From the NCBI RefSeq assembly GCF_004323595.1, contig NZ_AP019373.1:682001-746000 (forward strand): a stretch of 64,000 bases of DNA, in the 5' to 3' direction. This DNA is from Sulfuricystis thermophila. GTDB taxonomy: Bacteria; Pseudomonadota; Gammaproteobacteria; Burkholderiales; Rhodocyclaceae. The notes below the pieces were generated by a model, which was not told where the DNA came from, searched no databases, and saw only the letters and a program-made list of their open reading frames with translations. Positions 1 to 64,000 of this stretch are shown one piece after another; the stretch's first letter is position 1, and each line of letters opens with the position of its first letter. A program made the translations under genes and the position numbers.

Positions 1-766
1 TTTTGCCATAGACGGGGTCGCCGACCAGCGGGTGGCCAAAGCTGGCCATATGCACGCGGATCTGGTGCGTGCGGCCGGTCTCCAGCCGGCATTCGAGCAG
101 CGTTGCGCGCGCGAAGCGTTCGCGCACGGCGTAGTGCGTGCGCGCCGCCTTGCCCCCCTGTTTCACCACCGCCATCTTGATGCGTTGCACAGGATGCCGG
201 CCGATCGGCGCATCGATGCTGCCTCCCGTCGCGACCTGACCATGCACCAGCGCCAGGTAATGCCGCTGCACCTGGCGCGCGGCCAGCGCGCGGACGAGCT
301 GGGTTTGCGCCGCGAGGGTCTTGGCCACCACCATCAGGCCGGAGGTGTCCTTGTCGAGGCGATGGACGATGCCGGCGCGCGGCACTTCGGCGAGTTGCGG
401 CGCATGGTGCAGCAGCGCATTCATCAGGGTGCCACGCTCGTTGCCGTTACCGGGATGGACGACCAGACCCGCGGGTTTGTCGATGACGATCAGGCTGTCG
501 TCCTCGTAGACGATCGGCAGCGGGATGTCCTCGGCCACTGTCGCGGAAGTCGGCGCTGGCAAGACGGCACAGAAGATGCGCTCGCCGCCATGCACCTTGC
601 GTTTGGCATCGGCAGGCAGGCCATCGAGGAGGATCGCGCCACTTTTCAGCCAGCCCTGCAGGCGACTGCGCGAATGCTCGGGAAACAGCCGCGCCAGCGC
701 CGCGTCGAGCCGCAGGCCCGCGCAGTCGGCCGGCAGGGTGATTTCGCTATAATCGACCGGACTCAT
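1..766 (-). CDS. rluD: 23S rRNA pseudouridine synthase RluD, 3' end cut by window edge
   Basis: Makes pseudouridines in helix 69 of 23S rRNA (the RluD/RluA family reaction). The minus-strand frame starts at ATG 766 and runs out of the window without a stop, leaving about 255 codons of a protein usually near 320 residues. An S4-like N-terminus (RLDAALARLFPEHSRSRLQ) is followed by the family catalytic motif HRLDKDTSGLMV, whose Asp is the nucleophile, and by RTHQIRVHMA near the cut end. It is divergent from bamD, a common betaproteobacterial arrangement. A copy of the 24-bp dispersed repeat lies inside the coding sequence, read here as AVLPAPT. Assignment as RluD rather than RluC rests on the bamD neighbourhood and the sequence flavour. 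Confidence 0.93.
   Translation of the reverse strand, partial: MSPVDYSEITLPADCAGLRLDAALARLFPEHSRSRLQGWLKSGAILLDGLPADAKRKVHGGERIFCAVLPAPTSATVAEDIPLPIVYEDDSLIVIDKPAGLVVHPGNGNERGTLMNALLHHAPQLAEVPRAGIVHRLDKDTSGLMVVAKTLAAQTQLVRALAARQVQRHYLALVHGQVATGGSIDAPIGRHPVQRIKMAVVKQGGKAARTHYAVRERFARATLLECRLETGRTHQIRVHMASFGHPLVGDPVYGK
546..569 (+). repeat. 24-bp dispersed repeat, copy 1
   Basis: 21 of 24 positions match the consensus seen at 42334-42357. It lies inside rluD, antisense to the gene, and is translated there as AVLPAPT. Confidence 0.75.
748..753 (+). promoter_or_regulatory. Candidate -10 box for bamD
   Basis: A perfect TATAAT lies 37 nt before the bamD ATG, inside the first codons of the divergent rluD. 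No good -35 hexamer is visible 17 nt upstream, so this is only a candidate. Confidence 0.35.
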
Positions 767-6357: not shown

Positions 6358-7755
6358 TCAATGGCTGGCGGCAAACTCGACTTCCAGCCCCGGCCAGACG
6401 GCTTTAAGCGCCGCCTTGAAATCGGCCTGGATGCGGGAAAGCGCTGCCTCGTCGTCCGCCTCGAAACGCAGCACGACGACCGGCGTGGTATTCGAAGCGC
6501 GCGCCAGACCGAAGCCGTCGGCATATTCGGCGCGCACGCCGTCGAGGGTGATCAACTCGCGGGCGTCCTTCAGCACGCGCTTCTCGAGCGCCGCTTCCTT
6601 CAGTTTGGCGATCAGCCGGTGCGGTTCGCCTTCCTTCATTTTCAGGTTGAGTTCCGGCGTCGACAGGGCATTCGGCAGGTGTTTCAGCGGCCAGTTGGCA
6701 TCCGGCCAGCGGCTGACGATCTCCAGCAGCCGCGCGCCGGCGTAGAGGCCGTCGTCGAAGCCATACCAGCGCTCGTTGAAAAACATGTGGCCGCTCATCT
6801 CGCCAGCGAGCGGCGCGCCGGTTTCCTTGAGCTTGGCTTTGATCAGTGCATGACCGGTGTTCCACATCAGCGGCACGCCGCCCTGGAAGCGCACCGATTC
6901 GGCCACCCAGCGCGAGCATTTGACATCGAAGATGATCGTCGCGCCGGGATGGCGGCAGAGGATGTCGGCGGCGAACAGCATCAGCTGCCGATCCGGATAG
7001 ATGATCTCGCCGTCCTTGGTGACGACGCCGAGGCGGTCGCCGTCGCCGTCGAAGGCGAGCCCGAGCTCCGCATCGGTGTCACGCAGCGTGCGCTGCACAT
7101 CGCGCAGGTTCTCGGGCTTCGACGGGTCGGGATGATGATTCGGAAAGCGGCCATCGACCGTGCAGAAGAGTTCGATCACCTCGCAGCCCATGCGCCGGAA
7201 CAGTTCGGGCGCGAGTTCTCCGGCGACGCCATTGCCGCAGTCGACGACGATCTTCATCGGTCGGGCGAGCTTGACATCCGAGACGATGCGCTCGAGATAG
7301 GCGGATTTGACGTCGGTGCGGCACAGCACGCCACGGCCGGTCGCAAAGTCGGCGCTGGCGATACGGCACCGCAAGGCCTGGATGCGCTCGTTGGCCAGCG
7401 TCTCGCCGCCCAGCACGATCTTGAAGCCGTTGTAGTCGGGCGGATTGTGACTGCCGGTGACCGAGACGCAGCTTTGCGTGCCGAGATGGTGGGCAGCGAA
7501 ATAGGTCACCGGCGTGGGCACGCAGCCGATATCGACCGCATCGGTGCCGGTGCTGATGATGCCGTCGGCAAGCGCGGCAGCAAGCTCTGGGCCGGAGAGC
7601 CGGCCGTCGCGGCCGATGACGATCGCGCGCATTCCGGCATGACGCGCCTCGGTGCCGAGCGCCCGGCCGATGAGATGCGCCGTCTCGGCGGTGAGCGACT
7701 GGCCGACGATGCCGCGGATGTCATAGGCCTTGAAAATTTCGGGGGCGATGGTCAT
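6358..7755 (-). CDS. Phosphomannomutase/phosphoglucomutase
   Basis: Alpha-D-phosphohexomutase of the AlgC/ManB type, interconverting 1- and 6-phosphates of mannose and glucose for LPS and exopolysaccharide precursors. The 465 residues match AlgC. The N-terminus FKAYDIRGIVG is diagnostic. The catalytic phosphoserine is in VTGSHNPPDYNGFKI (about residues 100-115), the metal-binding loop is FDGDGDRLGVV, and the sugar-binding loop is GEMSGHMFF. It ends the ilvE-zinc finger-waaF-SnoaL run of genes, consistent with a role in surface polysaccharide supply. A copy of the 24-bp repeat is inside the gene, read as CRIASADF. Confidence 0.94.
   Translation of the reverse strand: MTIAPEIFKAYDIRGIVGQSLTAETAHLIGRALGTEARHAGMRAIVIGRDGRLSGPELAAALADGIISTGTDAVDIGCVPTPVTYFAAHHLGTQSCVSVTGSHNPPDYNGFKIVLGGETLANERIQALRCRIASADFATGRGVLCRTDVKSAYLERIVSDVKLARPMKIVVDCGNGVAGELAPELFRRMGCEVIELFCTVDGRFPNHHPDPSKPENLRDVQRTLRDTDAELGLAFDGDGDRLGVVTKDGEIIYPDRQLMLFAADILCRHPGATIIFDVKCSRWVAESVRFQGGVPLMWNTGHALIKAKLKETGAPLAGEMSGHMFFNERWYGFDDGLYAGARLLEIVSRWPDANWPLKHLPNALSTPELNLKMKEGEPHRLIAKLKEAALEKRVLKDARELITLDGVRAEYADGFGLARASNTTPVVVLRFEADDEAALSRIQADFKAALKAVWPGLEVEFAASH
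7345..7368 (+). repeat. 24-bp dispersed repeat, copy 2
   Basis: 22 of 24 positions match. It lies inside the phosphohexomutase gene, antisense to it, and is translated there as CRIASADF. Confidence 0.8.
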
Positions 7756-8192: not shown

Positions 8193-9181
8193 CAGCGGTT
8201 CAATGCGGCGAGCACGTGTTCCGGTGAGATGTCTTCGAGGCAGCGCAGCGTGTCCGGCGGCGCGAGCGGGCATTCGCGCTCGAAGCACGGAGAGCACGGG
8301 AGCTTAAGGCTCAGGATTTTCGCATGGCGTGAGAGCGGCGGGGTATAGGTCGGGCTCGACGAGCCGTAGAGGGCGATGGTGGGCCGGTCGAGCGCCGCGG
8401 CGACGTGCATCAGGCCGGAATCGTTGGTAACGACGGCGCGCGCGCTGGCGATGAGGTCGATCGCTTGTTCGAGCGTGGTGCGGCCGCACAGATCGAGCGC
8501 AGTCCCTTGGGACAAACGGGCGATCTCGGCGCCGATCGGCGCATCCTTCTTTGAGCCGATGAGCCAGACTGCCGTTCCGTCAGCGCCGATTTTCTGCGCG
8601 AGGGCGGCGAAATGGTGCGCCGGCCAGCGCTTGGCCGGGCCGTATTCCGCGCCGGGACAGAAGACGATGGGATGAGCATCGAGCGGCAGGCCGAGCGCCT
8701 CGCGCGCCTGACGTTGCTGTTCCGGCGTCGAGACCAGGCGGGGTTCGGGCGTGGGAGCGGGGAATTCACCGGCCAGCGCCGCATAACGGTCGACGAGCCG
8801 CGGCAGCGTGCTGTTCGGCAAGCGTCGGTTGAGCAGGATGAAGCGGGCTTCCCCGCTGTAGCCGATGCGTTGTGGAATTTTGGCGAAGAAGGGAACGAGG
8901 GCAGACTTCCATGAGTTCGGCAGCACATAGGCGGCGGCATAGTCGGCGGCTTGGAGACGGCGCCCCAGGGCCTTTCTGCCCGCCCAGTCGAAGGCGCCAT
9001 GCGGGAAGGGGTTTTCGATCACCGCAGCGACTTCCGGCATGCGCCCAAGCAGCGGCGCGCTCCAGGCCGGCGCCAAGACGTGGATCTCGGCCGCCGGATC
9101 GCGTGCCTTGAGCCGCATCAAGAGCGGCTGCATCATGATCGTGTCGCCGATCCAGGACGGCGCGACGATGAGGATCTTCAG
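8192..9181 (-). CDS. waaF: Lipopolysaccharide heptosyltransferase II, CTG start
   Basis: GT9-family glycosyltransferase adding the second heptose to the LPS inner core at the cytoplasmic face of the inner membrane. It begins LKILIVAPSWIGDTIMMQPL, the canonical WaaF N-terminus, and carries CPGAEYGPAKRWP and the C-terminal TNDSGLMHVAAAL donor-binding motif. No ATG, GTG or TTG fits at the conserved N-terminus. The only well-placed start is CTG at 9181, which overlaps the TGA of the preceding zinc-finger gene (CTGA) and has an AAGGGG box about 7 nt upstream. In-frame starts further upstream would add residues antisense-like to the zinc-finger gene. A copy of the 24-bp repeat is read here as KIGADGTA. 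Confidence 0.93.
   Translation of the reverse strand: MKILIVAPSWIGDTIMMQPLLMRLKARDPAAEIHVLAPAWSAPLLGRMPEVAAVIENPFPHGAFDWAGRKALGRRLQAADYAAAYVLPNSWKSALVPFFAKIPQRIGYSGEARFILLNRRLPNSTLPRLVDRYAALAGEFPAPTPEPRLVSTPEQQRQAREALGLPLDAHPIVFCPGAEYGPAKRWPAHHFAALAQKIGADGTAVWLIGSKKDAPIGAEIARLSQGTALDLCGRTTLEQAIDLIASARAVVTNDSGLMHVAAALDRPTIALYGSSSPTYTPPLSRHAKILSLKLPCSPCFERECPLAPPDTLRCLEDISPEHVLAALNR
8570..8593 (-). repeat. 24-bp dispersed repeat, copy 3
   Basis: 21 of 24 positions match. It lies inside waaF in the sense direction and is translated as KIGADGTA. Confidence 0.7.
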
Positions 9182-10382: not shown

Positions 10383-10835
10383 ATGAATCGCATCTGGAAA
10401 CCCAATGTCACCGTCGCCGCGCTGATGGAACGGGAGGGCCGCTTTCTGCTCGTCGAGGAGGAGACGGCGGAGGGCTTGCGCTTCAACCAGCCCGCCGGTC
10501 ATCTCGACGAAGGCGAGTCGCTGATCGAAGCCTGCACGCGCGAGGCGCTGGAGGAGACCGCCCATGCCTTCACGCCGACCGCGCTGGTCGGCGTCTATCA
10601 ATGGCCGCGTCCGCAGGGCGACATCACCTATCTGCGCTTTGCCTTCGCGGGAGAAGTCGGCGCTCGCGATGCGGCACGACCGCTCGACACCGGCATCCTG
10701 CGCGCCGTCTGGATGACCGTGGAGGAAATCGAAGCCTGCCAGGACCGGCACCGCAGCCCGCTGGTGCTGCAATGCATCCGGGATTATCTGGCCGGCAGGC
10801 GTTACCCGCTCGAGCTGATTCATCACTATGGCTAA
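10383..10835 (+). CDS. nudJ: Nudix hydrolase, NudJ type
   Basis: Nudix-family phosphatase acting on nucleoside di/triphosphates and thiamine diphosphate precursors in characterised NudJ proteins. The 150 residues carry the Nudix box [20 protein letters not shown] (about residues 40-59) with its catalytic glutamates. It overlaps mnmA by 8 nt, the same nudJ-mnmA pairing as in Escherichia coli, which supports the name. ATG 10383 lies only 7 nt after a TAGAAT box, so the transcript may have little or no leader. A degenerate 24-bp repeat copy is read as EVGARDAA. Confidence 0.9.
10653..10676 (+). repeat. 24-bp dispersed repeat, degenerate copy 4
   Basis: 19 of 24 positions match. It lies inside nudJ, sense direction, translated as EVGARDAA. 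This is one of the weaker copies. Confidence 0.45.
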
Positions 10836-14914: not shown

Positions 14915-14920
14915 GTTTGG

Positions 14921-14944
14921 TGCCGTCCTCGCAGCGCCGACTTT
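14921..14944 (-). repeat. 24-bp dispersed repeat, copy 5
   Basis: 21 of 24 positions match. It is intergenic, between the cytochrome c' terminator and the stop codon of the b561 gene, touching the latter. Confidence 0.7.
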
Positions 14945-18840: not shown

Positions 18841-20974
<2,134 letters not shown>

Positions 20975-22584: not shown

Positions 22585-24032
22585 CGGCCAAGCGGATCGC
22601 GCACCAGCCGCTCACGTGCCGTGCCGTCAGCGCCGAGGATTTCCACTTCGAGGGGCATCCGGCCCAGCGCATGGGTCGCGCAGGACAGACAGGGATCGAA
22701 GGCGCGGATCGCGACTTCGACGTGATTGAGCAGGCCTTCGGTGATCTGTTGGCCGTCGAGATACTGATGGGCGACGGCAAGGATCGCCTCGTTCATCGCC
22801 TGGTTGTTGTGGGTGGTCGAGACGATCAGGTTGGCGCGGATCACCAGATCGTTTTCATCGACGCGGTAGTGGTGGATCAGCGTGCCGCGCGGCGCTTCGA
22901 TCACGCCGACGCCGCGCTCCTGCCGCTCGCCGCTGGCCAGCAATTCCTTGCCGCAGATGTCCTCGTCGTGGAGCAGTTCCTTGATGGTCTCGGCGGCATG
23001 GAGCATTTCGATCATGCGTGCCCAGTGGTAGCCCAGCGTGGCGCCGGCGGCCCGACCGTCGTCGAAGGCGAGGAATTCCCGGCGTTCGTGGTCGGCCAGC
23101 GGCGTCGGGATGAAGTCGCAGAGCGTGACGCGCGCCAGCGGCCCGACACGGTACCAGCCGCGCTCGGCATCGCCCAGGGCCTTGAAGAAGGGGAATTTCA
23201 TGTAGCTCCAGGGTTTCACGTCTTCGCCGATGAACTCCCAATAGCGCCGGTAGTCGGCATGATCGAACAGTGTCGCACCATTGCTCAGACGCGCACGGAG
23301 TCCGCCCTCATAGAGGTCCATCGCCCCCGAAGGGGCGACGAGGCTCATCGCCGGCGCGGAAAAACGGGCGAAATCGCGGTAGTGCTCGCGATGGGTTTCG
23401 AACAGGCGCTTGACGAGCTCGACGGCCTCACGCGACCAGCCGATGATGGTGTAGATGTCTTTGAGCAACGCGGCGCGTTCGTCCTGGCTGAGCGATTTGT
23501 TGACGCCGCCGGGGATGGCGCCGGTGCCGTGGATGCGTTTGCCGGCCGTCAGGCGGATCACTTCCTGGCCATATTTGCGGATCAGCACGCCTTTGCGGGC
23601 GATCTCGGGATGGCTGGCCGCCAGGCCGACGATGTTGCGCTTCGCCCTCTCGGCATCGAAACCGAACAGCAGGTCGGGCGAGGCGAGATAGAAGAAATGC
23701 AGCGCGTGCGATTGCAGGATCTGGCCATAGTGCATCAGGCGGCGGATCTTCTCGGCGGTCGGCGGGATGCGGCTGCCGACGATCATGTCCATCGCCTTGG
23801 CGGCGGCCAGATGGTGCGAGACCGGGCAGATGCCGCACAGGCGCTCGACCATCACTGGCACTTCCCAATACGGGCGCCCTTCGATGAATTTCTCGAAGCC
23901 GCGGAATTCGACGATGTGCAGCCGTGCCTGACACACGCGCTCGTGCTCGTCGAGCAGCAGCGTCACCTTGCCGTGCCCTTCGACGCGCGAGAGCGGATCG
24001 ATGGCGATGCGTTTGAGTGGGGCGTCAGTCAT
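22569..24032 (-). CDS. hoxH: NAD-reducing hydrogenase large subunit HoxH
   Basis: Catalytic [NiFe] subunit of the group 3d NAD-linked hydrogenase. The 487 residues carry both nickel-binding pairs, RLCGICPVSHH near the N-terminus and DPCLSCATHA near the C-terminus. About 30 residues follow the cleavage-site histidine, so the extension removed by HoxW is present. DPLSRVEGHGKV is the large-subunit signature. It is co-transcribed in the order hoxF-U-Y-H-W with overlaps throughout. A variant 24-bp repeat copy falls in the cleaved C-terminal tail, read as LGADGTA. Confidence 0.96.
   Translation of the reverse strand: MTDAPLKRIAIDPLSRVEGHGKVTLLLDEHERVCQARLHIVEFRGFEKFIEGRPYWEVPVMVERLCGICPVSHHLAAAKAMDMIVGSRIPPTAEKIRRLMHYGQILQSHALHFFYLASPDLLFGFDAERAKRNIVGLAASHPEIARKGVLIRKYGQEVIRLTAGKRIHGTGAIPGGVNKSLSQDERAALLKDIYTIIGWSREAVELVKRLFETHREHYRDFARFSAPAMSLVAPSGAMDLYEGGLRARLSNGATLFDHADYRRYWEFIGEDVKPWSYMKFPFFKALGDAERGWYRVGPLARVTLCDFIPTPLADHERREFLAFDDGRAAGATLGYHWARMIEMLHAAETIKELLHDEDICGKELLASGERQERGVGVIEAPRGTLIHHYRVDENDLVIRANLIVSTTHNNQAMNEAILAVAHQYLDGQQITEGLLNHVEVAIRAFDPCLSCATHALGRMPLEVEILGADGTARERLVRDPLGRCLHP
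22617..22640 (-). repeat. 24-bp dispersed repeat, degenerate copy 7
   Basis: 19 of 24 positions match. It shares the variant core GGCGCTGACGGCACGGCA with the copy in mtnB at 63905. It lies in hoxH, within the region encoding the tail removed on maturation. Confidence 0.5.
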
Positions 24033-27129: not shown

Positions 27130-27987
27130 ATGCGCATCCTGAGCTGGAACATCCAATGGGGCCGCGGGCTCGATGGCCGCGTCGATCTGGCGCGCATCGC
27201 CGAGGAGGCGCGCAACTTCGATGCCGAGGTCTATTGCTTCCAGGAAGTGGCGGTGAATCACCCTGGCTTGGCCGGGATGCCGCCGGGTCAGCTCGACCAG
27301 GTCGCGGTGCTGCGCGGCCTGTTTCTTGGTTACGAGGCCGCCTTCGGCGCCGACAGCGATTTGCCGGACGGTCTGGGCGGCCGGCGGCTGTTTGGCAACC
27401 TGATCCTCTCGCGGCGGCCCATGCTGCAAATTTTCCGTCATCTCCTGCCCTGGCCGGCGGAAGCCGCAGTGCCCAGCATGCAGCGCATCGCCGTCGAAGC
27501 GGTGATCGAGGCGCCGGAATTCCCCGGCGGCGCATTGCGCGTGATCACCACGCATCTCGAGTATTACTCGGCGAGCCAGCGTGCAGCGCAATGTGCGGCG
27601 CTGCGAGCGATCGCCGATACCGGCTGGCGCCATGCCGTTTCGCCTCGTTCCGCGGCGGATACCGACGCGCCGTTCGCGGTGCTGCCGCGCGGCGAGGGCT
27701 GTGTGATCTGTGGCGATTTCAACGCGCCGGTCGGCGCGCCGGAGCAGGCAGCGCTCACCGCGACGCATGATGCGCCGGCACTCGTCAATGCCTGGAGCGT
27801 CGTGCACGGTGCCGCCCCGCCAGCGCCGACTTTCGGCGTCCATGAGCGGCGCTATGTCGAAGCCCCGGCCTGCTACGACATCTTCTTCGTCGGCGCAAAC
27901 ATCGCCGAGCGGGTGACGGGTGTCGAGGTCGATCTCGGCAGCACCGCGTCGGATCATCAGCCGGTGGTGTTGAGGTTGGCGGATTAG
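27130..27987 (+). CDS. Endonuclease/exonuclease/phosphatase family protein
   Basis: A 285-residue cytosolic protein with the DNase I-like fold: RILSWNIQWGRGLDGRVD at the N-terminus, CFQEVAVNH, CVICGDFNAPVG, and a C-terminal TASDHQPVVLRL, which supply the metal and catalytic His/Asp residues of the EEP superfamily. The substrate (nucleic acid, inositol phosphate or lipid) is not evident. It is divergent from hoxF and 30 nt before hypC, within the hydrogenase cluster, with no known hydrogenase role. It contains a copy of the 24-bp repeat, read as APPAPTFG. Confidence 0.88.
   Translation: MRILSWNIQWGRGLDGRVDLARIAEEARNFDAEVYCFQEVAVNHPGLAGMPPGQLDQVAVLRGLFLGYEAAFGADSDLPDGLGGRRLFGNLILSRRPMLQIFRHLLPWPAEAAVPSMQRIAVEAVIEAPEFPGGALRVITTHLEYYSASQRAAQCAALRAIADTGWRHAVSPRSAADTDAPFAVLPRGEGCVICGDFNAPVGAPEQAALTATHDAPALVNAWSVVHGAAPPAPTFGVHERRYVEAPACYDIFFVGANIAERVTGVEVDLGSTASDHQPVVLRLAD
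27810..27833 (-). repeat. 24-bp dispersed repeat, copy 8
   Basis: 23 of 24 positions match. It lies inside the EEP-family gene, antisense to it, translated as APPAPTF. Confidence 0.85.
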
Positions 27988-28269: not shown

Positions 28270-29399
28270 AATACATCGACGAGTTTCGTGACGGTGAGCT
28301 CGCCAAGGGGCTTGCGGCGGCGATTGCCGCCGCGGCGCGGCCGGAGCGCCAGTATGCCTTCATGGAATTCTGCGGCGGCCACACCCACGCGATTTCGCGC
28401 TATGGCGTCACCGATCTCCTGCCGGCCAACGTGCGCATGGTGCATGGACCGGGCTGCCCGGTGTGCGTGCTGCCGATCGGTCGCATCGACATGGCGATCG
28501 AACTCGCGCTCAGACATCAGGCCATCCTCTGCAGTTATGGCGACTGTCTGCGCGTGCCGGCCTCCGCTGGTTTGTCCTTGCTCAAAGCCAAGTCGCACGG
28601 CGGCGACATCCGCATGGTGTATTCGGCGGCCGATGCCTTGAAGATCGCGCGCGAGAATCCGCAACGTGAGGTGGTGTTCTTCGCCATTGGTTTCGAGACC
28701 ACCACGCCGCCGACGGCGGTGGTGATCAAGCAGGCCGCGGCGGAAGGGGTGAACAACTTCAGCGTGCTCTGCTGTCATGTGCTGACGCCCTCCGCCATCA
28801 TGAGCATCCTCGAATCGCCCGAGGTGCGGCGCTGGGGCACGGTGCCGCTCGACGGTTTCGTCGGCCCGGCGCATGTGTCGACGGTGATCGGCAGTCGGCC
28901 CTATGAGTTTTTCGCCGAGGAGTACCGCAAGCCCGTGGTGATCGCCGGCTTCGAGCCGCTCGACGTGATGCAGGCGATCCTGATGCTGATCCGCCAGGTC
29001 AATGAGGGCCGTTGCGAGGTGGAGAACGAATTCACGCGCGCGGTGTCGCGCGAGGGCAATGTCAAGGCTCAGGCGCTCGTCGCCGAGGTGTTCGAACTGC
29101 GGCGCAGTTTCGAGTGGCGCGGCATGGGCACGATTCCCTATTCGGCGCTGGCGATCCGGCAGGCGTTTGCGGATTTCGATGCCGAGCGCCGTTTTGGGCT
29201 CGAATATCATCCCGTGCCGGATCACAAGGCCTGCGAATGCGGTGCGATCCTGCGCGGCGTGAAAGAGCCGCGCGACTGCAAGCTGTTCGGCACCGTCTGC
29301 ACACCGGAGAATCCGATCGGCAGCTGCATGGTGAGTTCGGAGGGCGCCTGCGCCGCCTACTACACCTATGGCCGCCATCGCGAAGAGATCGCGGGATGA
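28266..29399 (+). CDS. hypD: Hydrogenase maturation protein HypD
   Basis: Scaffold carrying a [4Fe-4S] cluster on which the Fe(CN)2CO cofactor is assembled with HypC. The 377 residues contain FCGGHTHAISRYG, HGPGCPVCVLPIGRID and the C-terminal CECGAILRGVKEP...CTPENPIGSCMVSSEGACAAYY cysteines. It is coupled to hypC and hypX by 4-nt overlaps on both sides. Confidence 0.97.
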   Translation: MKYIDEFRDGELAKGLAAAIAAAARPERQYAFMEFCGGHTHAISRYGVTDLLPANVRMVHGPGCPVCVLPIGRIDMAIELALRHQAILCSYGDCLRVPASAGLSLLKAKSHGGDIRMVYSAADALKIARENPQREVVFFAIGFETTTPPTAVVIKQAAAEGVNNFSVLCCHVLTPSAIMSILESPEVRRWGTVPLDGFVGPAHVSTVIGSRPYEFFAEEYRKPVVIAGFEPLDVMQAILMLIRQVNEGRCEVENEFTRAVSREGNVKAQALVAEVFELRRSFEWRGMGTIPYSALAIRQAFADFDAERRFGLEYHPVPDHKACECGAILRGVKEPRDCKLFGTVCTPENPIGSCMVSSEGACAAYYTYGRHREEIAG

Positions 29400-31063
29400 A
29401 GGTCCTTTTTCTCACTCACAGCTTCAACAGCCTCACTCAGCGTTTGTTCGCCGAACTGACTGCGCGCGGCCACGAGGTGTCGGTGGAATTCGACATCGCC
29501 GATGCGGTGAGCGAGGAGGCGGTCGCGCTCTGGCAGCCCGACCTGATCCTCGCGCCTTTCCTCAAGCGCGCGATTCCGGCATCGATCTGGCGCCATCACC
29601 TGTGCTGGGTCGTCCATCCCGGCATCGTCGGTGACCGCGGCCCCTCGGCGCTCGATTGGGCGATCCAGGAGGGTGAAAACGAGTGGGGTGTCACGGTGTT
29701 GCAGGCCGAGGCCGAGATGGATGCCGGGCCGATCTGGGCGACGGCGAGCTTTCCGATGCGGCGCGCTCGCAAGGCCAGCCTCTATCGCCAGGAAGTCACC
29801 GAGGCGTCGGTGACGGCGGTGCTTTCTGCGCTCGAACGGCTCAAGCGGGGCGAGAAACCGACGCCGCTTCATGAGTGGCCCAACGCGCGCGGGCGGCTAC
29901 GACCGCTGATGAAGCAGGCGGATCGCGCGATCGACTGGCAGAACGACGATATGCAAACGGTGCTGCGCAAGATCGACGCGGCCGACGGTTTTCCCGGCGT
30001 GGCGGACAGCCTGTTGGGTCACGCCTGTCATCTTTACGATGCCTGGCCGGAGACGCGGCTCAAGGGCGAGCCCGGTGCGGTGATCGCCCGGCGCGAGACG
30101 GCGCTTTGTCGCGCCACCGTCGATGGCGCCGTGTGGATCGGCCATGTGAAACGAGCAGGGGGCATCAAGCTGCCGGCGACGGTGACCTTCGCTCGCGAAG
30201 CTGCCGGCGTGCCCGAGCTGCCGCTCGCTGGCTGGTGGAGCGCCGATCATGCGACCTGGCAGGACATCCGTTACGAAGAGGATGGCGCGGTCGGCTTCCT
30301 CCATTTCGACTTCTACAATGGCGCGATGAGCACCCGGCAGTGCGAGCGTCTGCGTGAGGCGTTTCTGTGGGCGACGGCTCGTCCGACGCGCGTCATCGTG
30401 CTGATGGGCGGGCGCGACTTTTGGAGCAATGGCATCCATCTCAACCTGATCGAACATGCGGCGAGCCCCGCCGATGAATCCTGGGCGAACATCAACGCCA
30501 TCGACGATCTCGCCGAAGCGCTCATCCGCTGTGAATCGCATTTGACGGTCGCGGCGCTCTCTGGCAATGCCGGCGCGGGCGGCTGTTTCCTCGCCCGCGC
30601 CTGCGACGAGGTTTGGGTGAGGGACGGTGTGGTGCTCAACCCGCATTACAAGAACATGGGCAATCTCTTTGGCTCGGAGTTCTGGACTTATCTGTTGCCG
30701 CCGCGCGTCGGCAGCGAGGGTGCGGCGGCGATCATGCGCCATCGCTTGCCGATGCTGGCTTATGCAGCGGTTGAGTGTGGCTTCTACGATGCCGTCCTGC
30801 CAGCGCCGACATTTGGCGACGAAGTGGCGCGCCGTGCCGCGGCCTTGGCGCAGGATTTTGCCGCGCGCATCGCCGCCAAGCGCGCGCGGCGCGCTGCCGA
30901 CGAGGCCCGCAAACCGCTGGCCGCCTATCGCGCCGAGGAGCTCGCCCAGATGCGGCGCAACTTTTACGGCTTCGATCCGAGCTACCATGTGGCGCGCTGG
31001 CATTTCGTCGCCAAGACGCCGCATTCCTGGACGCCGCGCCATTTGGCGCGGCATCGTATGTGA
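29396..31063 (+). CDS. hypX: HypX/HoxX, CO-ligand synthesis for [NiFe] hydrogenase under air
   Basis: Generates the active-site CO from a formyl-tetrahydrofolate group under oxic conditions, as established for Ralstonia and Aquifex HypX. The 555 residues have an N-terminal formyltransferase-like half (HPGIVGDRGPSALDWAI; about 1-270) and a C-terminal enoyl-CoA hydratase-like half (GGRDFWSNGIHLNLIE; ALSGNAGAGGCFLA). ATG 29396 overlaps the hypD stop. Its presence suggests hydrogenases are matured while oxygen is present. A 24-bp repeat copy is read as AVLPAPTF. Confidence 0.93.
   Translation: MKVLFLTHSFNSLTQRLFAELTARGHEVSVEFDIADAVSEEAVALWQPDLILAPFLKRAIPASIWRHHLCWVVHPGIVGDRGPSALDWAIQEGENEWGVTVLQAEAEMDAGPIWATASFPMRRARKASLYRQEVTEASVTAVLSALERLKRGEKPTPLHEWPNARGRLRPLMKQADRAIDWQNDDMQTVLRKIDAADGFPGVADSLLGHACHLYDAWPETRLKGEPGAVIARRETALCRATVDGAVWIGHVKRAGGIKLPATVTFAREAAGVPELPLAGWWSADHATWQDIRYEEDGAVGFLHFDFYNGAMSTRQCERLREAFLWATARPTRVIVLMGGRDFWSNGIHLNLIEHAASPADESWANINAIDDLAEALIRCESHLTVAALSGNAGAGGCFLARACDEVWVRDGVVLNPHYKNMGNLFGSEFWTYLLPPRVGSEGAAAIMRHRLPMLAYAAVECGFYDAVLPAPTFGDEVARRAAALAQDFAARIAAKRARRAADEARKPLAAYRAEELAQMRRNFYGFDPSYHVARWHFVAKTPHSWTPRHLARHRM
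30790..30813 (-). repeat. 24-bp dispersed repeat, copy 9
   Basis: 22 of 24 positions match. It lies inside hypX, antisense to it, translated as AVLPAPTF. Confidence 0.8.
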
Positions 31064-35163: not shown

Positions 35164-35174
35164 TGATGGCTCCC

Positions 35175-35198
35175 TGCCGTCCCGCCAGCGCCGACTTT
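35175..35198 (-). repeat. 24-bp dispersed repeat, exact copy 10
   Basis: An exact consensus copy in the 43-nt gap between hoxC and hoxJ, ending 8 nt before the hoxJ ATG, where a ribosome-binding site would be expected. Confidence 0.92.
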
Positions 35199-37971: not shown

Positions 37972-38967
37972 ATGACCACGCGACGCGATTTTCTGAAAGG
38001 CGCGCTGGCAGCCGGCACGCTGGTCGGCGCTGGCGGGACGGCATCGGCGCGTGAAACCCACAAGGTGCCGGAAGGCGCGCTGGGACTGCTTTACGACGCG
38101 ACGCTGTGCGTCGGCTGCAAGGCCTGTGTCGCCGCCTGCAAGGAAGCCAACGGCAATCCGCCGGAGTTCAACACCGTCGATCATCTGTGGGATACGCCGC
38201 TCGACACCAGCGGCTACACCTTCAACATCATCAAGATGTATCGCAACGGCACGATGGAAACGAAGGATGCCGAGATCAACGGTTATGCTTTCATGAAGAC
38301 CTCGTGCATGCACTGCGCCGATCCGTCGTGCGTGTCGGCCTGTCCGGTGTCGGCCATGACCAAGGATCCGGTCACTGGCATCGTCAAATACAACCCGAAC
38401 AAGTGCATCGGCTGCCGCTACTGCGTCGCCGCCTGCCCGTTCGGCATCCCGAAATACCAATACGACAGCCCGACCGGGCGGATCGGCAAATGCGAGCTGT
38501 GCCGCCATCGCCACAAAGACGGCCATTACTCGGCCTGCGCCGAGGTCTGTCCGACCGGCGCGACGCTGTTCGGCAAGACTGCCGACCTGCTTGCCGAAGC
38601 CAAGCGGCGGCTGGCGCTCAAGCCCGGCACCGTGACCACCTTCCCGCGTGGCCGCCTGGGTGAGGCGACCGCGCCCGGCGTCAGCTGGCGAAAGGAACCC
38701 GACCAGAGTTACGAAGGCGTGGTGGGCAATTACCAGCAGCATATCTACGGAGAGAAGGAGTACGGCGGCACGCAGGTGCTCAAGCTCTCCGGCGTGCCCT
38801 TCGAGAAGGTCGGCATGCCGAAACTGCCGCCCTATTCTTCGGCGGCGACGTCGGAAACCATCCAGCACACGCTCTATGGCGGTCTCGTGATGCCGATCGC
38901 GGTATTGGCCGGGCTCACTTTCGTTGCCAAGCGTAACGTCAAATCCGCGGAAGGAGGCGAGCAATGA
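37972..38967 (+). CDS. hybA: Hydrogenase-2 ferredoxin-like subunit HybA
   Basis: Periplasmic iron-sulfur protein relaying electrons from HybO to HybB. The 331 residues start with a Tat signal (TTRRDFLKGALAAGTLVGAG), carry four [4Fe-4S] motifs (CVGCKACVAAC, CMHCADPSCVSAC, CIGCRYCVAAC, CELCRHR with CAEVC), and end in a membrane anchor (LVMPIAVLAGLTFVAKR). The 24-bp repeat sits in the signal-peptide region, read as LVGAGGTA. It overlaps hybB by 4 nt. Confidence 0.95.
   Translation: MTTRRDFLKGALAAGTLVGAGGTASARETHKVPEGALGLLYDATLCVGCKACVAACKEANGNPPEFNTVDHLWDTPLDTSGYTFNIIKMYRNGTMETKDAEINGYAFMKTSCMHCADPSCVSACPVSAMTKDPVTGIVKYNPNKCIGCRYCVAACPFGIPKYQYDSPTGRIGKCELCRHRHKDGHYSACAEVCPTGATLFGKTADLLAEAKRRLALKPGTVTTFPRGRLGEATAPGVSWRKEPDQSYEGVVGNYQQHIYGEKEYGGTQVLKLSGVPFEKVGMPKLPPYSSAATSETIQHTLYGGLVMPIAVLAGLTFVAKRNVKSAEGGEQ
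38020..38043 (+). repeat. 24-bp dispersed repeat, copy 11
   Basis: 21 of 24 positions match, with the last 20 bases exact. It encodes LVGAGGTA just before the signal-peptidase region of the HybA Tat signal. Confidence 0.8.
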
Positions 38968-41857: not shown

Positions 41858-42334
41858 TTGCGTGCGGTGGTCTTGGGCATAGGCAACACGATCCGCGCCG
41901 ACGAAGGCATCGGCGTGCGCGTCGTCGAGGCGCTCGCCCGCGACTACGTGCTGCCGGAGGGCGTCGCCGCCATCGACGGCGGCACGTCGAGCATGGAGAT
42001 GCTCGAAGAGCTTTCCCATCTCGACTTCCTGCTCGTCATCGATGCGATCGACGACGGCAAGCCGCCGGGCGAAAGGGTGCGATTGGAGGGCGACGCCGTG
42101 CCGGTATTCTTCCGCCGCAATCTCTCGCCGCATGGCATCGGCCTTTCCGACGTGCTCGCCGCGCTCGAGTTCATGGGCGCGGCGCCGAAGGAGACGGTGA
42201 TCCTCGGCGTGCAGCCGCTCTCGCTCGAGCTGTCGATGGAACTTTCGCCCACCATTGCCGCGCGCGTTCCGGAGCTCGTGGCGCAAACGGTCATCGAGCT
42301 CTCGCAGCGGGGGCTGGCGCCCCGACGCAAGTAA
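41858..42334 (+). CDS. hybD: Hydrogenase maturation protease, HybD type
   Basis: Endopeptidase for the HybC C-terminal tail. The 158 residues begin RAVVLGIGNTIRADEGIGVR, with the conserved Asp/Glu nickel-sensing residues, followed by DGGTSSMEMLEEL, LLVIDAIDDGK and SPHGIGLSDVLAAL. It starts with TTG at 41858, one base after the hybC stop. The 24-bp repeat begins on its last stop-codon base. Confidence 0.93.
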   Translation: MRAVVLGIGNTIRADEGIGVRVVEALARDYVLPEGVAAIDGGTSSMEMLEELSHLDFLLVIDAIDDGKPPGERVRLEGDAVPVFFRRNLSPHGIGLSDVLAALEFMGAAPKETVILGVQPLSLELSMELSPTIAARVPELVAQTVIELSQRGLAPRRK

Positions 42335-42357
42335 AAGTCGGCGCTGGCGGGACGGCA
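42334..42357 (+). repeat. 24-bp dispersed repeat, exact copy 12, at the hybE start
   Basis: An exact consensus copy that exactly fills the gap between hybD and hybE. Its first base is the last base of the hybD stop codon, and its last base is the A of the hybE ATG. Confidence 0.93.
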
Positions 42358-42824
42358 TGTTTCATCACGAAGATCCGAGCGCACTCATCGAAGCGACCTT
42401 CCGGCGCATCGAGACGGAGCGCATGACGGGGCTGCCCTTCCTCAATCCGCGGCTGCGCATCGCCGCCGTCGGCTTTGCGCGCCACGAAAACGACTGGCGC
42501 GGAGCATTGCTGACGCCCTGGGGCATTCAGCTCCTGCTTCTGCCCGCCGTCGCCGACTGGCCCGTGCCATCCCCATTGGAGCGCGCCTTCCGTCAGTATC
42601 CAGCGGGAACCTTCGCCTTCCTGCCCAATCACGAAGAGGGACTGGGCGACTACCTCGCCTGTCCGCTGATTTCCGACATGCAGCCCTTCGCCGACCAGGA
42701 GACGGCGCTCGCCACCGCGCGCGCCTGCCTGATCGCGCTCGACATTCCGCCGGTGAGATCAGAAGCCCAACCCGCTGCGCCTGTCTCGGATGGGCGGCGG
42801 CGGTTTTTGGGGCTGGACGGCTAG
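42357..42824 (+). CDS. hybE: [NiFe] hydrogenase assembly chaperone, HybE/HupJ family
   Basis: A 155-residue cytosolic protein beginning FHHEDPSALIEATFRRIE, with the family core GLPFLNPRLRIAAVGFARHE, GALLTPWGIQLLLLP and the C-terminal PLISDMQPFADQETA. HybE proofreads Tat export of the hydrogenase-2 subunits in E. coli, and related HupJ/HoxT proteins assist small-subunit maturation. It has no clear ribosome-binding site because the 24-bp repeat ends at its ATG. The last domain is variable in the family. Confidence 0.85.
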   Translation: MFHHEDPSALIEATFRRIETERMTGLPFLNPRLRIAAVGFARHENDWRGALLTPWGIQLLLLPAVADWPVPSPLERAFRQYPAGTFAFLPNHEEGLGDYLACPLISDMQPFADQETALATARACLIALDIPPVRSEAQPAAPVSDGRRRFLGLDG

Positions 42825-44051: not shown

Positions 44052-46275
44052 AGCCCATCGCATCCGTGTCAAGGGTGTCGTCCAGGGGGTCGGCTTTCGC
44101 CCTTTCGTCTGGCGACTCGCCCACGCGCTCGGCCTCCAGGGCTGGGTGAAGAATGATGCCGTTGGCGTCGACATCCACGCCGAGGGCGAACGACTCGATG
44201 AATTCGCGGCGCGACTGAGACTCGATGCCCCGCCGCTGGCGCGCGTCGATGCGGTCGTCGCAACAGAGACCGAGTGGCTCGGTTGCCGCGACTTTTTGAT
44301 CGTGGCGAGCGCCGGCGGCAAGGTGATGACGGCCATTGGCCACGATACCGCGACCTGCGCCGACTGTCTGGCCGAACTCTTCGATCCGGCCAACCGCCGC
44401 CATCGCCATCCCTTCATCACCTGCACGCACTGCGGGCCGCGCTACACCGTCACGCGGCGCCTGCCTTACGATCGGCCGCAGACGAGCCTGGCGCCATTTC
44501 CGCTCTGCCCCGACTGCGCGCGCGAATACACCGATCCGGCCGACCGGCGCTTTCATGCCGAGACGATCTGCTGCCCGAATTGCGGGCCGCGCTTGCAGTT
44601 GCTCGATGCAGCGGGACGGCCCATCGCCGGCGATCCGCTTGCCGCGACGCTGGCTTTGCTTGAAGCCGGCAAGATCGTCGCGATCAAGGGGCTGGGGGGC
44701 TTTCATCTCGCCTGCGATGCGACGAACTGCACGACTGTGGCCGCCTTGCGCGCACGCAAACAGCGCGAGGAAAAGCCTTTCGCGGTGATGGTCGCCGATG
44801 TCGCGCAGGCGGCGCGCTATGCGAAAGTCGGCGCTGGCGAGACGGCACTGCTCGAAGGTCCTGAGCGGCCGATCGTGCTGCTGGAAAAGAAAGTGGAGCT
44901 GGCCGGCATCGCGCCGGGGCTCGCCGAGATCGGCCTGATGCTGCCGGTCACGCCGATCCAGTTCCTGCTGTTTCACGACGCGCCGGAGATGGCGCTGGTG
45001 ATGACGAGCGCCAACCCGCACGGCGAACCCTTGGTGATCGGCAACGACGAGGCGCTGGCGCGGCTTTCCGGCATCGCCGATGCGTTCCTGCTGCACGACC
45101 GCGACATCGTTGTGCGCTGCGACGATTCGGTGCGCCGTGAGACGGTGTTCATCCGCCGCGCGCGCGGCTATGTGCCGCGCGCGATCAGGCTGCCGCGCGA
45201 GATTCCGCCCGTGCTCGCGGTCGGCGGCTGGTTCAAGAACACGGTGTGCGTCACACGCGGCGACGAGGCCTTCGTCTCGCAGCACGTCGGCGACCTCGAC
45301 AACGCGGCCGCCTGTGGCTTCTTCGAGGAGACCGTGGCCCATTTGCTATCCATCCTCGAGGTCGAACCGCAGTGCGTTGCCCATGACCTGCATCCCGATT
45401 TCCATTCGACGCGTTTTGCCGCGGCTTTCGCCGCTGAACGCGGCATCCACGCCATTGGTGTGCAGCATCATCATGCCCACATCGCCGCCGTCTGCGCCGA
45501 GCATGGTGTGACCGAGCCGGTGCTGGGATTGGCGCTCGATGGCGTGGGACTCGGCGCCGATGGCACGGCATGGGGCGGCGAGCTGTTGCGCGTCGAGTGC
45601 GCGAGATTCGAGCGTCTCGGTCACCTGCGGCCACTCGCGCTGCCCGGCGGCGATGTCGCGGCGCGCGAGCCCTGGCGCATGGCGGCGGCGGCCCTCCATG
45701 CCCTGGGGCACGGCAGCGAGATCGCGACGCGCTTCGCCGACGAGCCGGCCGCGCCAACCGTCGCGCAGATGCTCGCGCGCGGCTTCCATTGCCCCACGAC
45801 ATCGAGCGCGGGCAGGCTGTTCGACGCGGTGGCTGGGCTCTTGGGCGTGCGCCGCAGACAGAGCTACGAGGGCCAGGCGGCGATGCTGCTCGAAGGCCTG
45901 GCGGCACGGCATGGTCCCGTGTCGCCGCTCGCCGACGGCTGGCGGATGCTGGAGGGCGAGCTCGACTTGCTGCCGCTGTTCGCCTACCTCGAAGACTGCG
46001 AGGATGCCGCCGCCGGCGCGGCGCTGTTCCATGCCACCTTCTCGGCGGCGCTCGTCGATTGGGTGGTGGCAGCGGCTCATCGAACGGGCCTCCGCACGGT
46101 GGCGGCGGCCGGCGGCTGCCTGCTCAACCGCTTGCTGTCGGCGGCGCTGCGCAGTAGCCTTGCCGAACGTGGTGTGCGGCTCATCGAAGCGCGTGCCCTT
46201 CCGCCCAATGATGGCGGCTTGAGCCTCGGACAGGCTTGGGTGGCCGGCAGCCGGGGTGTGTGCGGCCGGGCTTGA
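44044..46275 (+). CDS. hypF: Carbamoyltransferase HypF
   Basis: Makes the thiocarbamate precursor of the cyanide ligands from carbamoyl phosphate and ATP. The 743 residues contain an acylphosphatase domain ([18 protein letters not shown]), two zinc fingers (CADC...CTHCG; CPDC...CCPNCG), a YrdC domain ([13 protein letters not shown]) and a Kae1-like domain ([31 protein letters not shown]). GTG 44044 is the start. HypE, its partner, is not in the window. A 24-bp repeat copy is read as KVGAGETA, and a sigma32 -35 box overlaps the stop codon. Confidence 0.96.
44824..44847 (+). repeat. 24-bp dispersed repeat, copy 13
   Basis: 23 of 24 positions match, identical to the queA copy. It lies inside hypF, sense direction, translated as KVGAGETA. 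Confidence 0.87.
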
Positions 46276-51524: not shown

Positions 51525-52406
51525 ATGGCCCAGCCGCTCTTCGAGTCTTCCATTACCAGCCTGCCGCTGATCAATCGCGGCAAGGTGCGCGACATCTATG
51601 CGGTCGGCGACGACGAGATGCTGATCGTCACCACCGACCGGCTTTCCGCCTTCGATGTGATCCTGCCCGACCCGATCCCCGGCAAGGGCGAGGTGCTGAC
51701 CGCGTTGGCCAATTTCTGGTTCGCCAAGCTCGCGCACATCCTTCCCAACCAGCTGACCGGCATCGATCCCGAGTCGGTCGTGAAACCGGAAGAGCGCGAC
51801 CAGGTGCGTGGCCGCGCCATCGTCGTGAAACGGCTCAAACCACTGCCGATCGAGGCGGTGGTGCGTGGCTATCTGATCGGTTCGGGCTGGAAGGATTACC
51901 AGCAGACCGGCAAGGTCTGCGGCATCGCGTTGCCGGCGGGGTTACGTATGGCGGAAAAGCTGCCGCAGCCGCTGTTCACGCCGTCGACCAAGGCGGAGCT
52001 CGGGCAGCACGACGAGAACATCGATTTCGCCACCGTCGAAAAGACCATCGGTACGCAGCTTGCCGCCCAGGTACGCGATGTCGCGCTCAGGCTCTACAGC
52101 GAGGCGGCCGAGTATGCCTTGAGCCGCGGCATCATCATCGCCGACACCAAGTTCGAGTTCGGTCTGGATGGAGCGGGCCGGCTTCATCTGATCGACGAGG
52201 TGCTCACCCCCGATTCCTCGCGCTTCTGGCCGGCCGATACCTACGAGGTCGGCAAGAATCCGTCTTCCTTTGACAAGCAGTTCGTGCGCGACTACCTCGA
52301 AACGCTGGACTGGAACAAACAGGCGCCCGGTCCGCACCTGCCGCCGGAGATCATCGAAAAAACCGCGGCGAAATACCGCGAGGCCCTCGAACGACTCACA
52401 CGCTGA
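51525..52406 (+). CDS. purC: SAICAR synthase
   Basis: Phosphoribosylaminoimidazole-succinocarboxamide synthase of purine synthesis. The 293 residues contain [40 protein letters not shown] and [19 protein letters not shown] 51525 is preceded by a GAGGAAA box and a TAGAAT box 22 nt upstream. The 24-bp repeat begins on its final stop-codon base. Confidence 0.96.
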
Positions 52407-52429
52407 AACTCGGCGCTGGCGGGACGGCA
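52406..52429 (+). repeat. 24-bp dispersed repeat, copy 14, directly after purC
   Basis: 23 of 24 positions match. Its first base is the last base of the purC stop. It shares the variant AAACTCGG start with the copy after the Crp/Fnr gene. Confidence 0.87.
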
Positions 52430-52457
52430 TTGAAGTCCCGTCTTCTGCCTCCATTGA

Positions 52458-54647: not shown

Positions 54648-54658
54648 CGAGGAGCGGT

Positions 54659-56091: not shown

Positions 56092-56726
56092 GTCTCGATG
56101 CGCTCTACCCGGTGCTTCGCGAGCTGCCAGACGAACTACGCACCCGCATCGCCGCGACGATCCAGCCGATGAGCGTGCCGGGCGGCACGGTGCTGTTCGA
56201 TGAACGCCAGCCCTGCCAGGGTTTTCCCTTCGTGCTCTCGGGTTGCATCCGTGTGCTCAAGCGGGCGGCCAACGGCCGCGAGCTGCCACTTTACAAGGTG
56301 CTGCCTGGAGAGAGCTGCATCATCACCTCGAGCTGTTTGCTCGGCCACGCCGATTACAACGCCTGCGGTGTGACGGAAGGCGAGACCCGTTTGGCGCTGT
56401 TGCCGCGCCCGATGTTCGATGAGCTGCTCGAGACGCCGTCTTTCCGTGATTTCGTCTTCGCGCTGTTCGCCGAGCGCATCGCCGATTTGATGCAACTCAT
56501 CGAAGAAGTCGCTTTCCGCAAGCTCGACCAGCGGCTCGCCAACCTGTTGCTCGGCAAGGGCCGGCAATTGAATGTCACTCACCAGCAACTCGCCGACGAA
56601 CTCGGCAGCGTACGCGAGATGGTCAGCCGGCTGTTGAAGGGCTTCGCCGATCAGGGACTGGTGCGGCTCGGGCGCGAGCAGATCGAGATCCTCGATCCTG
56701 CCGGCTTGCGCAGGATCGCGGCCTAA
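56088..56726 (+). CDS. Crp/Fnr-family transcription regulator without iron-sulfur cysteines
   Basis: A 212-residue regulator with a cNMP-type domain ([20 protein letters not shown]) and a C-terminal Crp helix-turn-helix ([20 protein letters not shown]). FNR's N-terminal cysteine cluster is absent; cysteines occur only at scattered positions, so oxygen sensing of the FNR type is unlikely. GTG 56088 overlaps xthA. The 24-bp repeat begins on its stop codon. Confidence 0.88.
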
Positions 56727-56748
56727 ACTCGGCGCTGGCGGGACGGCA
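56725..56748 (+). repeat. 24-bp dispersed repeat, copy 15, at the Crp/Fnr stop
   Basis: 23 of 24 positions match, identical to the copy after purC. Its first two bases are the last two of the stop codon TAA. Confidence 0.87.
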
Positions 56749-56837
56749 CTGTGTGATCTTGGTTACTGAACAAAACGGGACGGCCATGCTCTAATGAGCA
56801 GGTAGTTTTCAACCCCGTAACCCCAAAGGAGATCGTT

Positions 56838-58302: not shown

Positions 58303-58308
58303 TGAGTC

Positions 58309-62763: not shown

Positions 62764-63746
62764 ACGAGCTCTCTACCATCGCCGAAGACGGCGGCGACAT
62801 CGTCATCCTCGATCAGACGAAGCTGCCGCGCGAGACGACTTATCAGCGGCTGAAGACCTTGGCCGATGCCGCTCATGCGATCCGCTCGATGCAGGTGCGC
62901 GGCGCGCCCTTGATCGGCGCCACGGCGGCCTATGGCGTCGCGCTGGGTCTCCGGGAAGGCAAACCGCTCGACGAAATCCTCGCCACGCTTGCTGCGACAC
63001 GGCCGACGGCCGTCAATCTGCATTGGGCGCTGGAGAGGATGCGCCGCGTGCTCGAAAAATCGGCGCTGGCGGAACGGCTCCCGCGCGCCTGGGAAGAGGC
63101 GCGCGCCATCGCTCGCGAGGACCGTGAGGCGAATGCTGCGATCGGGCGGCATGGTCTGGCCGTTCTCGAAGCCATCGTCGAGCGCAAGGGTGCCGTCTCG
63201 GTGATGACCCATTGCAATGCCGGTTGGCTGGCCACCGTCGCCCACGGCACGGCGCTGGCGCCGATCTATGCCGCCCACGCAGCGGGACTCGCCGTGCATG
63301 TCTGGGTTTCCGAAACCCGCCCGCGCAACCAGGGTCGGCTCACCGCCTGGGAACTCGCGCAGTCGCAGGTTCCCCATACGTTCATCGCCGACAATGCTGC
63401 GGGCCTGCTGATGATGCAAGGCAAGGTGGATGTTGTGATCGTCGGCGCCGACCGCATCGCCGCCAATGGCGATACCGCCAACAAGGTCGGCACCTATCTG
63501 AAGGCGCTCGCCGCCCATGCGCACGAGGTGCCGTTCTATGTCGCGGCGCCGGTGTCGACGATCGATTTCGCCTGCCCAAATGGCGCGCAGATCCCGATCG
63601 AGGAGCGTGCCGCGGAGGAATTCGGCGAACTGCACACACCGGTCGCCAACCCGGCCTTCGACATCACGCCGGCCGCACTGATCTCCGGCATCATCACCGA
63701 ACGCGGGATCGTCGCCGCGAATGAGCTCCTGCGACTGAAGCCATGA
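62760..63746 (+). CDS. mtnA: S-methyl-5-thioribose-1-phosphate isomerase
   Basis: Methionine-salvage enzyme converting 5-methylthioribose-1-phosphate to the ribulose form. The 328 residues carry [20 protein letters not shown], catalytic Cys in [15 protein letters not shown], and catalytic Asp in [22 protein letters not shown] 62760 overlaps the secA stop. It is followed by mtnB with a 4-nt overlap. A 24-bp repeat copy is read as KSALAERL. Confidence 0.95.
63056..63079 (+). repeat. 24-bp dispersed repeat, copy 16
   Basis: 21 of 24 positions match. It lies inside mtnA in sense but a different frame from most copies, translated as KSALAERL. Confidence 0.65.
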
Positions 63747-64000
63747 GCGATCTCGCCGCCGCCGTGCTCGCCACTGCGCGGGCGATGAACGCCTCTGGGA
63801 TCAATCGCGGCGCCGCCGGCAATGTCAGCGCGCGTGACGGGGAGGGTTTCATCATCACGCCGACCGGCATGGCCTATGACCAGTGCATTGCGGCGGACAT
63901 GGTGAAAGTCGGCGCTGACGGCACGGCACAGGGAAGGCGCAGGCCCTCGTCCGAATGGCGTTTCCACCACGACATCTATGCCACCCGGCCAGAGGCCGGG
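63743..64000 (+). CDS. mtnB: Methylthioribulose-1-phosphate dehydratase, 5' part
   Basis: Class II aldolase-fold enzyme dehydrating methylthioribulose-1-phosphate in methionine salvage. The first 86 codons are in the window: ATARAMNASGINRGAAGNVS, then GFIITPTGMAYDQ and PSSEWRFHHDIYATRPEAG, as in class II aldolases. The zinc-site histidines beyond lie outside the window. Order secA-mtnA-mtnB is tight. A 24-bp repeat copy is read as KVGADGTA. Confidence 0.87.
   Translation, partial: MSDLAAAVLATARAMNASGINRGAAGNVSARDGEGFIITPTGMAYDQCIAADMVKVGADGTAQGRRRPSSEWRFHHDIYATRPEAG
63905..63928 (+). repeat. 24-bp dispersed repeat, copy 17
   Basis: 22 of 24 positions match. It lies inside mtnB, sense direction, translated as KVGADGTA. 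Confidence 0.8.

Follow-up and report, generated by a model that had tools for sequence, protein, structure and literature searches.

In a 64,000-nucleotide stretch of Sulfuricystis thermophila DNA (the window), the gene for the hydrogenase maturation protease HybD (41858..42334, plus strand; HycI-type according to Pfam) and the gene for the hydrogenase chaperone HybE (42357..42824, plus strand; Pfam NiFe-hyd_HybE) are joined by a repeated 24-mer, AAAGTCGGCGCTGGCGGGACGGCA, at positions 42334-42357 of the plus strand. As stated in an initial annotation of the window, the 24-mer opens with the final base of the hybD stop codon TAA (42332-42334) and closes with the A of the hybE ATG (42357), a start codon that is backed by an aligned methionine in relatives. 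Does the repeat serve the two genes that it joins, or does it stand there for other reasons? A comparison of genome sequences suggests that it is probably a copy of an uptake-sequence-like motif, of the kind of the self-DNA uptake sequences that go with biased uptake and recombination.

In order to define the repeat, we used a sample of 464 kb, consisting of the window and 20 evenly placed 20-kb blocks of one 2,737,315-bp contig. The consensus was AAAsTCGGCGCTGGCrrgACGGCAC, with the layout AAA-S-TCGGCGCTGGC-RRG-ACGGCA-C. In 86 core-matching copies the flanks were random on both sides of these 25 bp, and the borders were sharp. The 24-mer of the initial annotation is incomplete in that the true unit ends in ...GGCAC; at the hybD-hybE junction it lies within a 25-bp copy (42334..42358) that has a T instead of a C in position 25. 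The summed information content of the consensus is about 36 bits, a value inflated because the copies were selected on the core. Copies with 0, 1, 2, 3 and 4 mismatches numbered 30, 27, 19, 9 and 4 in the sample, and control matches began at 5 mismatches. The density is about one per 5.2 kb (89 copies in 464 kb).

On the entire 2,737,315-bp contig, the 24-mer was found in 227 forward and 226 reverse copies at up to 3 mismatches (453 in total), while a reversed-pattern control gave 0 on either strand. A pattern that tolerates dialects (see below) brought the number to about 500 copies on the same chromosome, 267 forward and 269 reverse. A strand-polar element of the KOPS type was rejected for this lack of strand bias. 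Palindromic symmetry is absent from the motif, which folds no better than shuffled sequences. A terminator or RNA hairpin was rejected, as neither the motif nor the hybD-hybE junction folds better than shuffles; the hoxJ junction folds marginally better (z -1.58).

The window contains 15 copies with at most 3 mismatches, versus 0 in 100 shuffles. The initial annotation had called the junction copy exact and listed three other copies at gene ends. The word exact is correct for the copy 8 nt before hoxJ, which at 35175-35198 of the reverse strand is identical to 42334-42357 (these two are the only identical 24-mers in the window); the copies at 52406 and 56725 differ by one base. As full 25-mers, the copies at gene ends are located between a large-subunit-like gene and a PAS/histidine kinase (hoxJ-like) gene (35174..35198, minus strand; kinase by Pfam), at the end of purC, the gene for SAICAR synthetase according to Pfam, starting from the final A of its stop codon (52406..52430, plus), and in a two-base overlap with the stop codon of a Crp/Fnr-family gene (56725..56749, plus; Pfam). 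A fifth abutting copy had been overlooked (14920..14944, minus); its first base coincides with the final stop-codon base of a minus-strand gene.

Abutment to gene ends is not the rule, as the majority of window copies lie inside genes. One is found in the gene 44044-46275, hypF-like by position, where it encodes the peptide KVGAGETA (44824..44848, plus); it is replaced without a gap in G005 and G006. A second KVGAGETA copy (20149..20173, minus) and an antisense copy read as AVLPAPTF (30789..30813, minus) both have ungapped motif-less orthologues in G006, and at 8569..8593 (minus) the G002 orthologue is 3 residues shorter. Further gene-internal copies are present at 546..570, 7345..7369, 63056..63080 and 63905..63929 on the plus strand and at 27809..27833 on the minus strand, and two copies have 3 mismatches (10653..10677, plus; 22616..22640, minus). 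With 4 mismatches to the 25-mer, there is a copy with a perfect core inside a ferredoxin-type hydrogenase gene (38020..38044, plus), a weak copy inside a gene (29138..29162, plus), for which the orthologous site of G004 holds a perfect copy, and a weak copy that may be due to chance (4262..4286, minus).

Placement relative to genes was analyzed in the 464-kb sample, for which a simple dicodon finder predicted 440 genes (89.8% coding; starts and some small genes are approximate). Of the 89 copies, 57 fell inside genes, 23 in intergenic DNA and 9 on gene edges. Edge and intergenic copies together (32 of 89) are 3.5-fold enriched relative to the 10.2% of non-coding DNA (P 8e-11). Gene-internal copies are read in five of the six frames: KVGAGETA-type (22 copies), AVPPAPTF-type (16), CRPASADF-type (9), KSALAGRH-type (8) and SRRWRDG-type (2), with none for the VPSRQRRL-type frame. 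The 32 non-genic copies account for 15 placements within 40 nt upstream of a start codon (sense to the gene in 6, antisense in 9) and for 24 placements downstream of a stop codon, 12 in either orientation. Seven copies take the last A of a stop codon as motif base 1, which is why the first reading of the window met with abutment to genes; this abutment is mostly a matter of packing.

The copies are spaced more regularly than expected by chance. The coefficient of variation of the spacing was 0.61 compared to 0.87 in simulations, and none of 2000 simulations was as even. Neighbor pairs closer than 1 kb were rare (4 observed, 15.6 expected), and the four orientation combinations of neighbors were nearly equally frequent (19, 18, 17 and 17). 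Closely spaced inverted pairs were absent from the 464-kb sample, where the smallest gap was 493 bp. Three of the 20 sample blocks had no copies; judged from their predicted proteins, and not from a database, these were a ribosomal-protein/rpoBC/tuf block, a prophage block and an IS-rich block. The congener Sulfuricystis multivorans (G002; NCBI family Sterolibacteriaceae) carried 48 copies in a 211-kb chromosome sample, but 0 in the 160 kb of its plasmids NZ_AP018719 and NZ_AP018720, instead of the 36 that the density in the chromosome sample predicts. Among viral contigs, 32 carried an exact copy, most of them with one to three copies. An IMG/VR contig (L242, 883-2240) has five copies that all point the same way at intervals of about 316-385 bp, in contrast to the even, kilobase-scale spacing on the chromosome.

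Searched with the dialect-tolerant pattern, the genus yielded 401-788 strand-balanced copies per genome in 18 of 19 genomes. The exception, G006, has 6 copies, though PilQ, ComEC and DprA are present, and no other iterated motif was found among the over-represented 11-mers in 142 kb of this genome. At the level of the family, 21 of 199 sampled genomes contained at least 201 copies and the remainder at most 23. The motif-rich genomes belong to 6 of 68 genera (g1, g2, g9, g62, g70 and g88 in the labels of the search tool). In a sample of 200 genomes of the order, the 194 from outside the family had no more than 14 matches, which we take as the chance level, and 80 named loci around purC from other bacteria never had more than two weak matches. 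Two genomes deserve separate mention. G292, from another family of the order, matches the tolerant pattern perfectly at five sites, with ACGGCA as well as ACGGCG types, and is otherwise near chance; these copies may be either transferred DNA or contamination. In G086 (genus g69), most of the 18 matches are TCGACGCTGGC, probably a further dialect that the pattern under-counts.

The motif differs between genomes in a concerted manner. In sampled stretches, it ends in ACGGCA in G000 and G002, and copies in G004 fit this form; it begins with AAAAG in G012 and G001, and ends in ACGGCG in G019 and G026 (stretches of G026 were partly picked at known matches, so that their density is biased). G005 has the ending ACGGTG (6 sampled copies only), and G017 has AAAC... 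and GCGGCG (24 sampled copies only). Motif loss in the latter two genomes is ruled out, since both carry their own dialects, with 738 and 650 copies, respectively, according to the tolerant pattern. Orthologous sites hold the dialect of the host, as seen at the hybD-hybE junction and in the genes that contain positions 44824 and 30789. Sites are not always retained in identical form: the motif at the 3' end of purC is reversed in G004 and forward in G000 and G002, and the gene at 44824 lacks the common copy in G005 and has its own copy a few codons upstream in opposite orientation. Between G000 and G002, conservation of the motif (0.913) is only slightly higher than that of its flanks (0.878).

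Regular spacing, absence from plasmids and prophage, and concerted dialects would also fit the binding site of a chromosomal DNA-binding protein (a nucleoid organizer, or a segregation or repair protein) that needs regularly spaced sites on self-DNA. We regard this explanation as unlikely. The motif has no strand polarity, is not palindromic and has no folding propensity beyond that of shuffles, and a near-invariant sequence that is read in five gene frames is far stricter than the sites of regulatory proteins usually are. The same comparison has been made for the uptake signal sequences (USS) of the Pasteurellaceae, which are stricter than the usual sites of regulatory proteins (PMC1626085).

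In order to find out how copies arise inside genes, we compared proteins with and without the motif. The test was limited to copies with at most 2 mismatches, and of 85 sites with a motif-less match, 34 were left for which the best motif-less orthologue had at least 60% amino acid identity. At 25 of these 34 sites, which are not all independent (several are mutual orthologues) and of which a few, e.g. noncoding copies, are perhaps wrong-frame alignments, the motif had replaced sequence without a gap; gaps were present at 9. Examples of gapless replacement are CGFYDAVLPAPTFGDEV versus CGFYDKVLPTAGFSAQV, and LFDPKSRRWRHGFITCT versus a motif-less counterpart of 17 residues. Looser sets were less clean. 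In the unfiltered set, which includes poor and wrong-frame alignments, the motif segment was gapped in 147 of 337 motif-less alignments, compared to 1481 of 7603 control segments. At the DNA level, gaps occurred in 13 of 18 motif-less coding pairs, many of which were named relatives at the single site 8569. Intergenic copies were often net gains of length. Taken together, the alignments suggest that gene-internal copies arise mostly by substitution.

These alignments bear directly on the idea that the motif might be a mobile mini-element of the REP or MITE kind, spreading by insertion of its own copies. Such an element would account for the strong consensus, for the gaps at 9 of 34 gene sites, and for those intergenic copies, including the one at the hybD-hybE junction, that are net insertions relative to motif-less relatives. 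For most gene copies, however, gapless replacement already refutes insertion, which might apply only to the intergenic net gains. The flanks of the position weight matrix do not contain terminal repeats, and even spacing and coordinated dialect change at orthologous sites are unlike insertion. As a general explanation, a mobile element is thus highly improbable.

Other repeats were encountered as well. In the 464-kb sample, CCCAGATTGTCCATT and its reverse complement occur in six pairs about 131 or 191 bp apart (L035 18422/18553, L036 19162/19353, L040 725/916 and 13660/13851, L041 5004/5195, L050 6239/6369), which resembles a small MITE-type element bounded by terminal inverted repeats. In the window, segments of 59 and 98 bp at 54499-54651 and 58069-58306 are each present twice, about 3.6 kb apart and 97% identical, and flank the Crp/Fnr region. 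G017 contains an array in which CATGCCAGACAT-type units recur at multiples of 9 bp (L183, 2326-2842), probably a repetitive coding region. On a Sulfuricystis plasmid (L284, 3983-7271), an N-6 DNA methylase segment is about 93% identical to plasmids of Klebsiella, Raoultella and Aeromonas.

What does the motif do at the hybD-hybE junction itself? It is present there in 7 of the 10 congeners that have hybE. In five of these (G000, G016, G014, G017 and G005), hybE starts 22-27 nt after the hybD stop codon, and in the other two (G002 and G004), hybD extends across the motif into hybE. In G012, G001 and G006, which lack the motif at this junction, the hybD stop codon overlaps the hybE ATG, so that the junction copy is a net gain of length relative to motif-less relatives. 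Identical spacing without the repeat, which the initial annotation had named as contrary evidence, was not found among the 10 congeners. Its suggestion that the repeat may affect translation is supported in part: the copy does alter the junction, but a role in ribosome binding or regulation finds no support as the cause of its presence. Because the junction differs with and without the motif, a side effect on the coupling of hybD and hybE is possible, but any influence on hybE translation would be a by-product of the motif. A function of the copy in ribosome binding or regulation at hybE and hoxJ is barely credible, even though it fills the space just upstream of both starts and goes along with the altered hybE spacing in motif-bearing congeners, because its orientations at hybE and hoxJ are opposite (the hoxJ-side copy is antisense relative to the hybE-side copy), most copies lie inside genes, orientation at starts shows no preference, and 3 of 10 congeners keep hybE without the motif. 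The hybD-hybE location of the copy is incidental, one more tolerated site.

We return to the uptake-sequence reading. The motif shares with uptake sequences over-representation, a strong consensus, lack of orientation bias, regular spacing, a preference for non-coding DNA together with many coding copies, an origin by substitution, concerted dialects, and scarcity in acquired DNA. Two traits are absent, a density near one per kb and close inverted pairs. Density is a common trait of uptake sequences, and not a functional requirement.

The machinery for DNA uptake is present in the genus, where PilQ was found in 19 of 19 genomes and ComEC and DprA in 18 of 19 each; ComEA was above the cut-off in 0 of 19, with matches below the cut-off only. 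Competence genes and the ComP-type pilin family PF16732 occur also in motif-free relatives, and therefore PF16732 does not single out a receptor. It matched in 53 of 61 genomes, including G006, and we rejected it as a receptor marker, as the inspected matches were ordinary pilE-like minor pilins, mostly beside fimT. With machinery that is present without the motif, ComEA below the cut-off, and pilins of the ordinary kind, we can only infer DNA uptake and a receptor here.

The proposed mechanism is as follows. A surface receptor for DNA, probably one of the minor pilins of the type IV pilus uptake machine, would bind the two-part motif, recognizing TCGGCGCTGGC and ACGGCA at a distance of 3 bases, with AAA in front. 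Binding would cause DNA of the own lineage to be taken up preferentially, and repeated uptake and recombination (molecular drive) would propagate and restore good copies at all places where protein function permits. Whenever the preference of the receptor shifts, all copies would follow, giving rise to dialects. The hybD-hybE copy would sit at a junction as gene junctions tolerate the motif, and as the A of a stop codon can serve as part of its AAA. We consider it likely that the motif is a third, independently evolved self-DNA uptake code of 25 bp with two fixed blocks, longer and more elaborate than the DNA uptake sequences (DUS) of the Neisseriaceae and the USS. It would have dialects in at least six Rhodocyclaceae/Sterolibacteriaceae-type genera, which are environmental bacteria and not mucosal pathogens, and would be read by a type IV pilus minor pilin that changes together with the dialect.

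According to two papers, sequence-specific DNA uptake has been described for two families only (PMC7811141, PMC5031613). Our literature search, which covered a minority of subscription papers, gave no report joining uptake sequences with Rhodocyclales or Rhodocyclaceae, and the core letters of the motif led to unrelated papers only, with no report for Rhodocyclaceae. In the literature searched, we thus found no earlier report of an uptake-sequence-like system with dialects for the host family. One idea, put forward in PMC7811141, ties sequence-specific uptake to host mucosa rich in foreign DNA. If true, a third system in environmental bacteria would make this idea and the molecular-drive model testable, the receptor could be sought by covariation with the dialect across more than 20 genomes, and tagged DNA would provide a genetic handle for a little studied group. 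Repeats at gene junctions in these genomes need not be regulatory.

How does the motif compare with known systems? With REP and MITE repeats it has in common many dispersed copies and a strong consensus, but it is non-palindromic, arises in genes mostly by substitution, and lacks terminal repeats. DUS and USS both occur at about one copy per kb. USS have an AT-rich tail, and the DUS receptor in Neisseriaceae is ComP.

The DUS of Neisseriaceae, 10-12 bp long (ATGCCGTCTGAA), differ from the 25-bp motif with its two fixed blocks. The density here is about five times lower, and the sample is without the inverted close pairs. Read on the reverse strand, the motif (42334-42358) has TGCCGTC in common with the Neisseria DUS, or TGCCGTCT where the spacer is GAG or AAG; shuffled motifs match as well in 3.5% (TGCCGTC) and 0.7% (8 bases, TGCCGTCT) of cases, so that kinship on the basis of these letters is no more than a lead. 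Like the motif, DUS are described as having very many copies, dialects by species group and strong conservation within a genome (PMC3630211), and as being found on both strands, inside and between genes (PMC1626085).

The USS core of Pasteurellaceae, AAGTGCGGT, is different in sequence, and a rigid GC-rich second block takes the place of the AT-rich tail. The density is lower here, and the host belongs to another class of Proteobacteria. In PMC1626085, USS and DUS alike are without orientation bias, spaced more regularly than random, and strong in consensus, and prefer non-coding DNA yet have many coding copies. All of this applies to the motif, including the coding fraction (65% for USS, a similar one here), and USS are likewise described there as not being insertions, with gaps in 24% of alignments. 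PMC7811141 sets out the molecular-drive model and describes uptake sequences as scarce in newly acquired and constrained DNA; the motif resembles USS in this scarcity, too.
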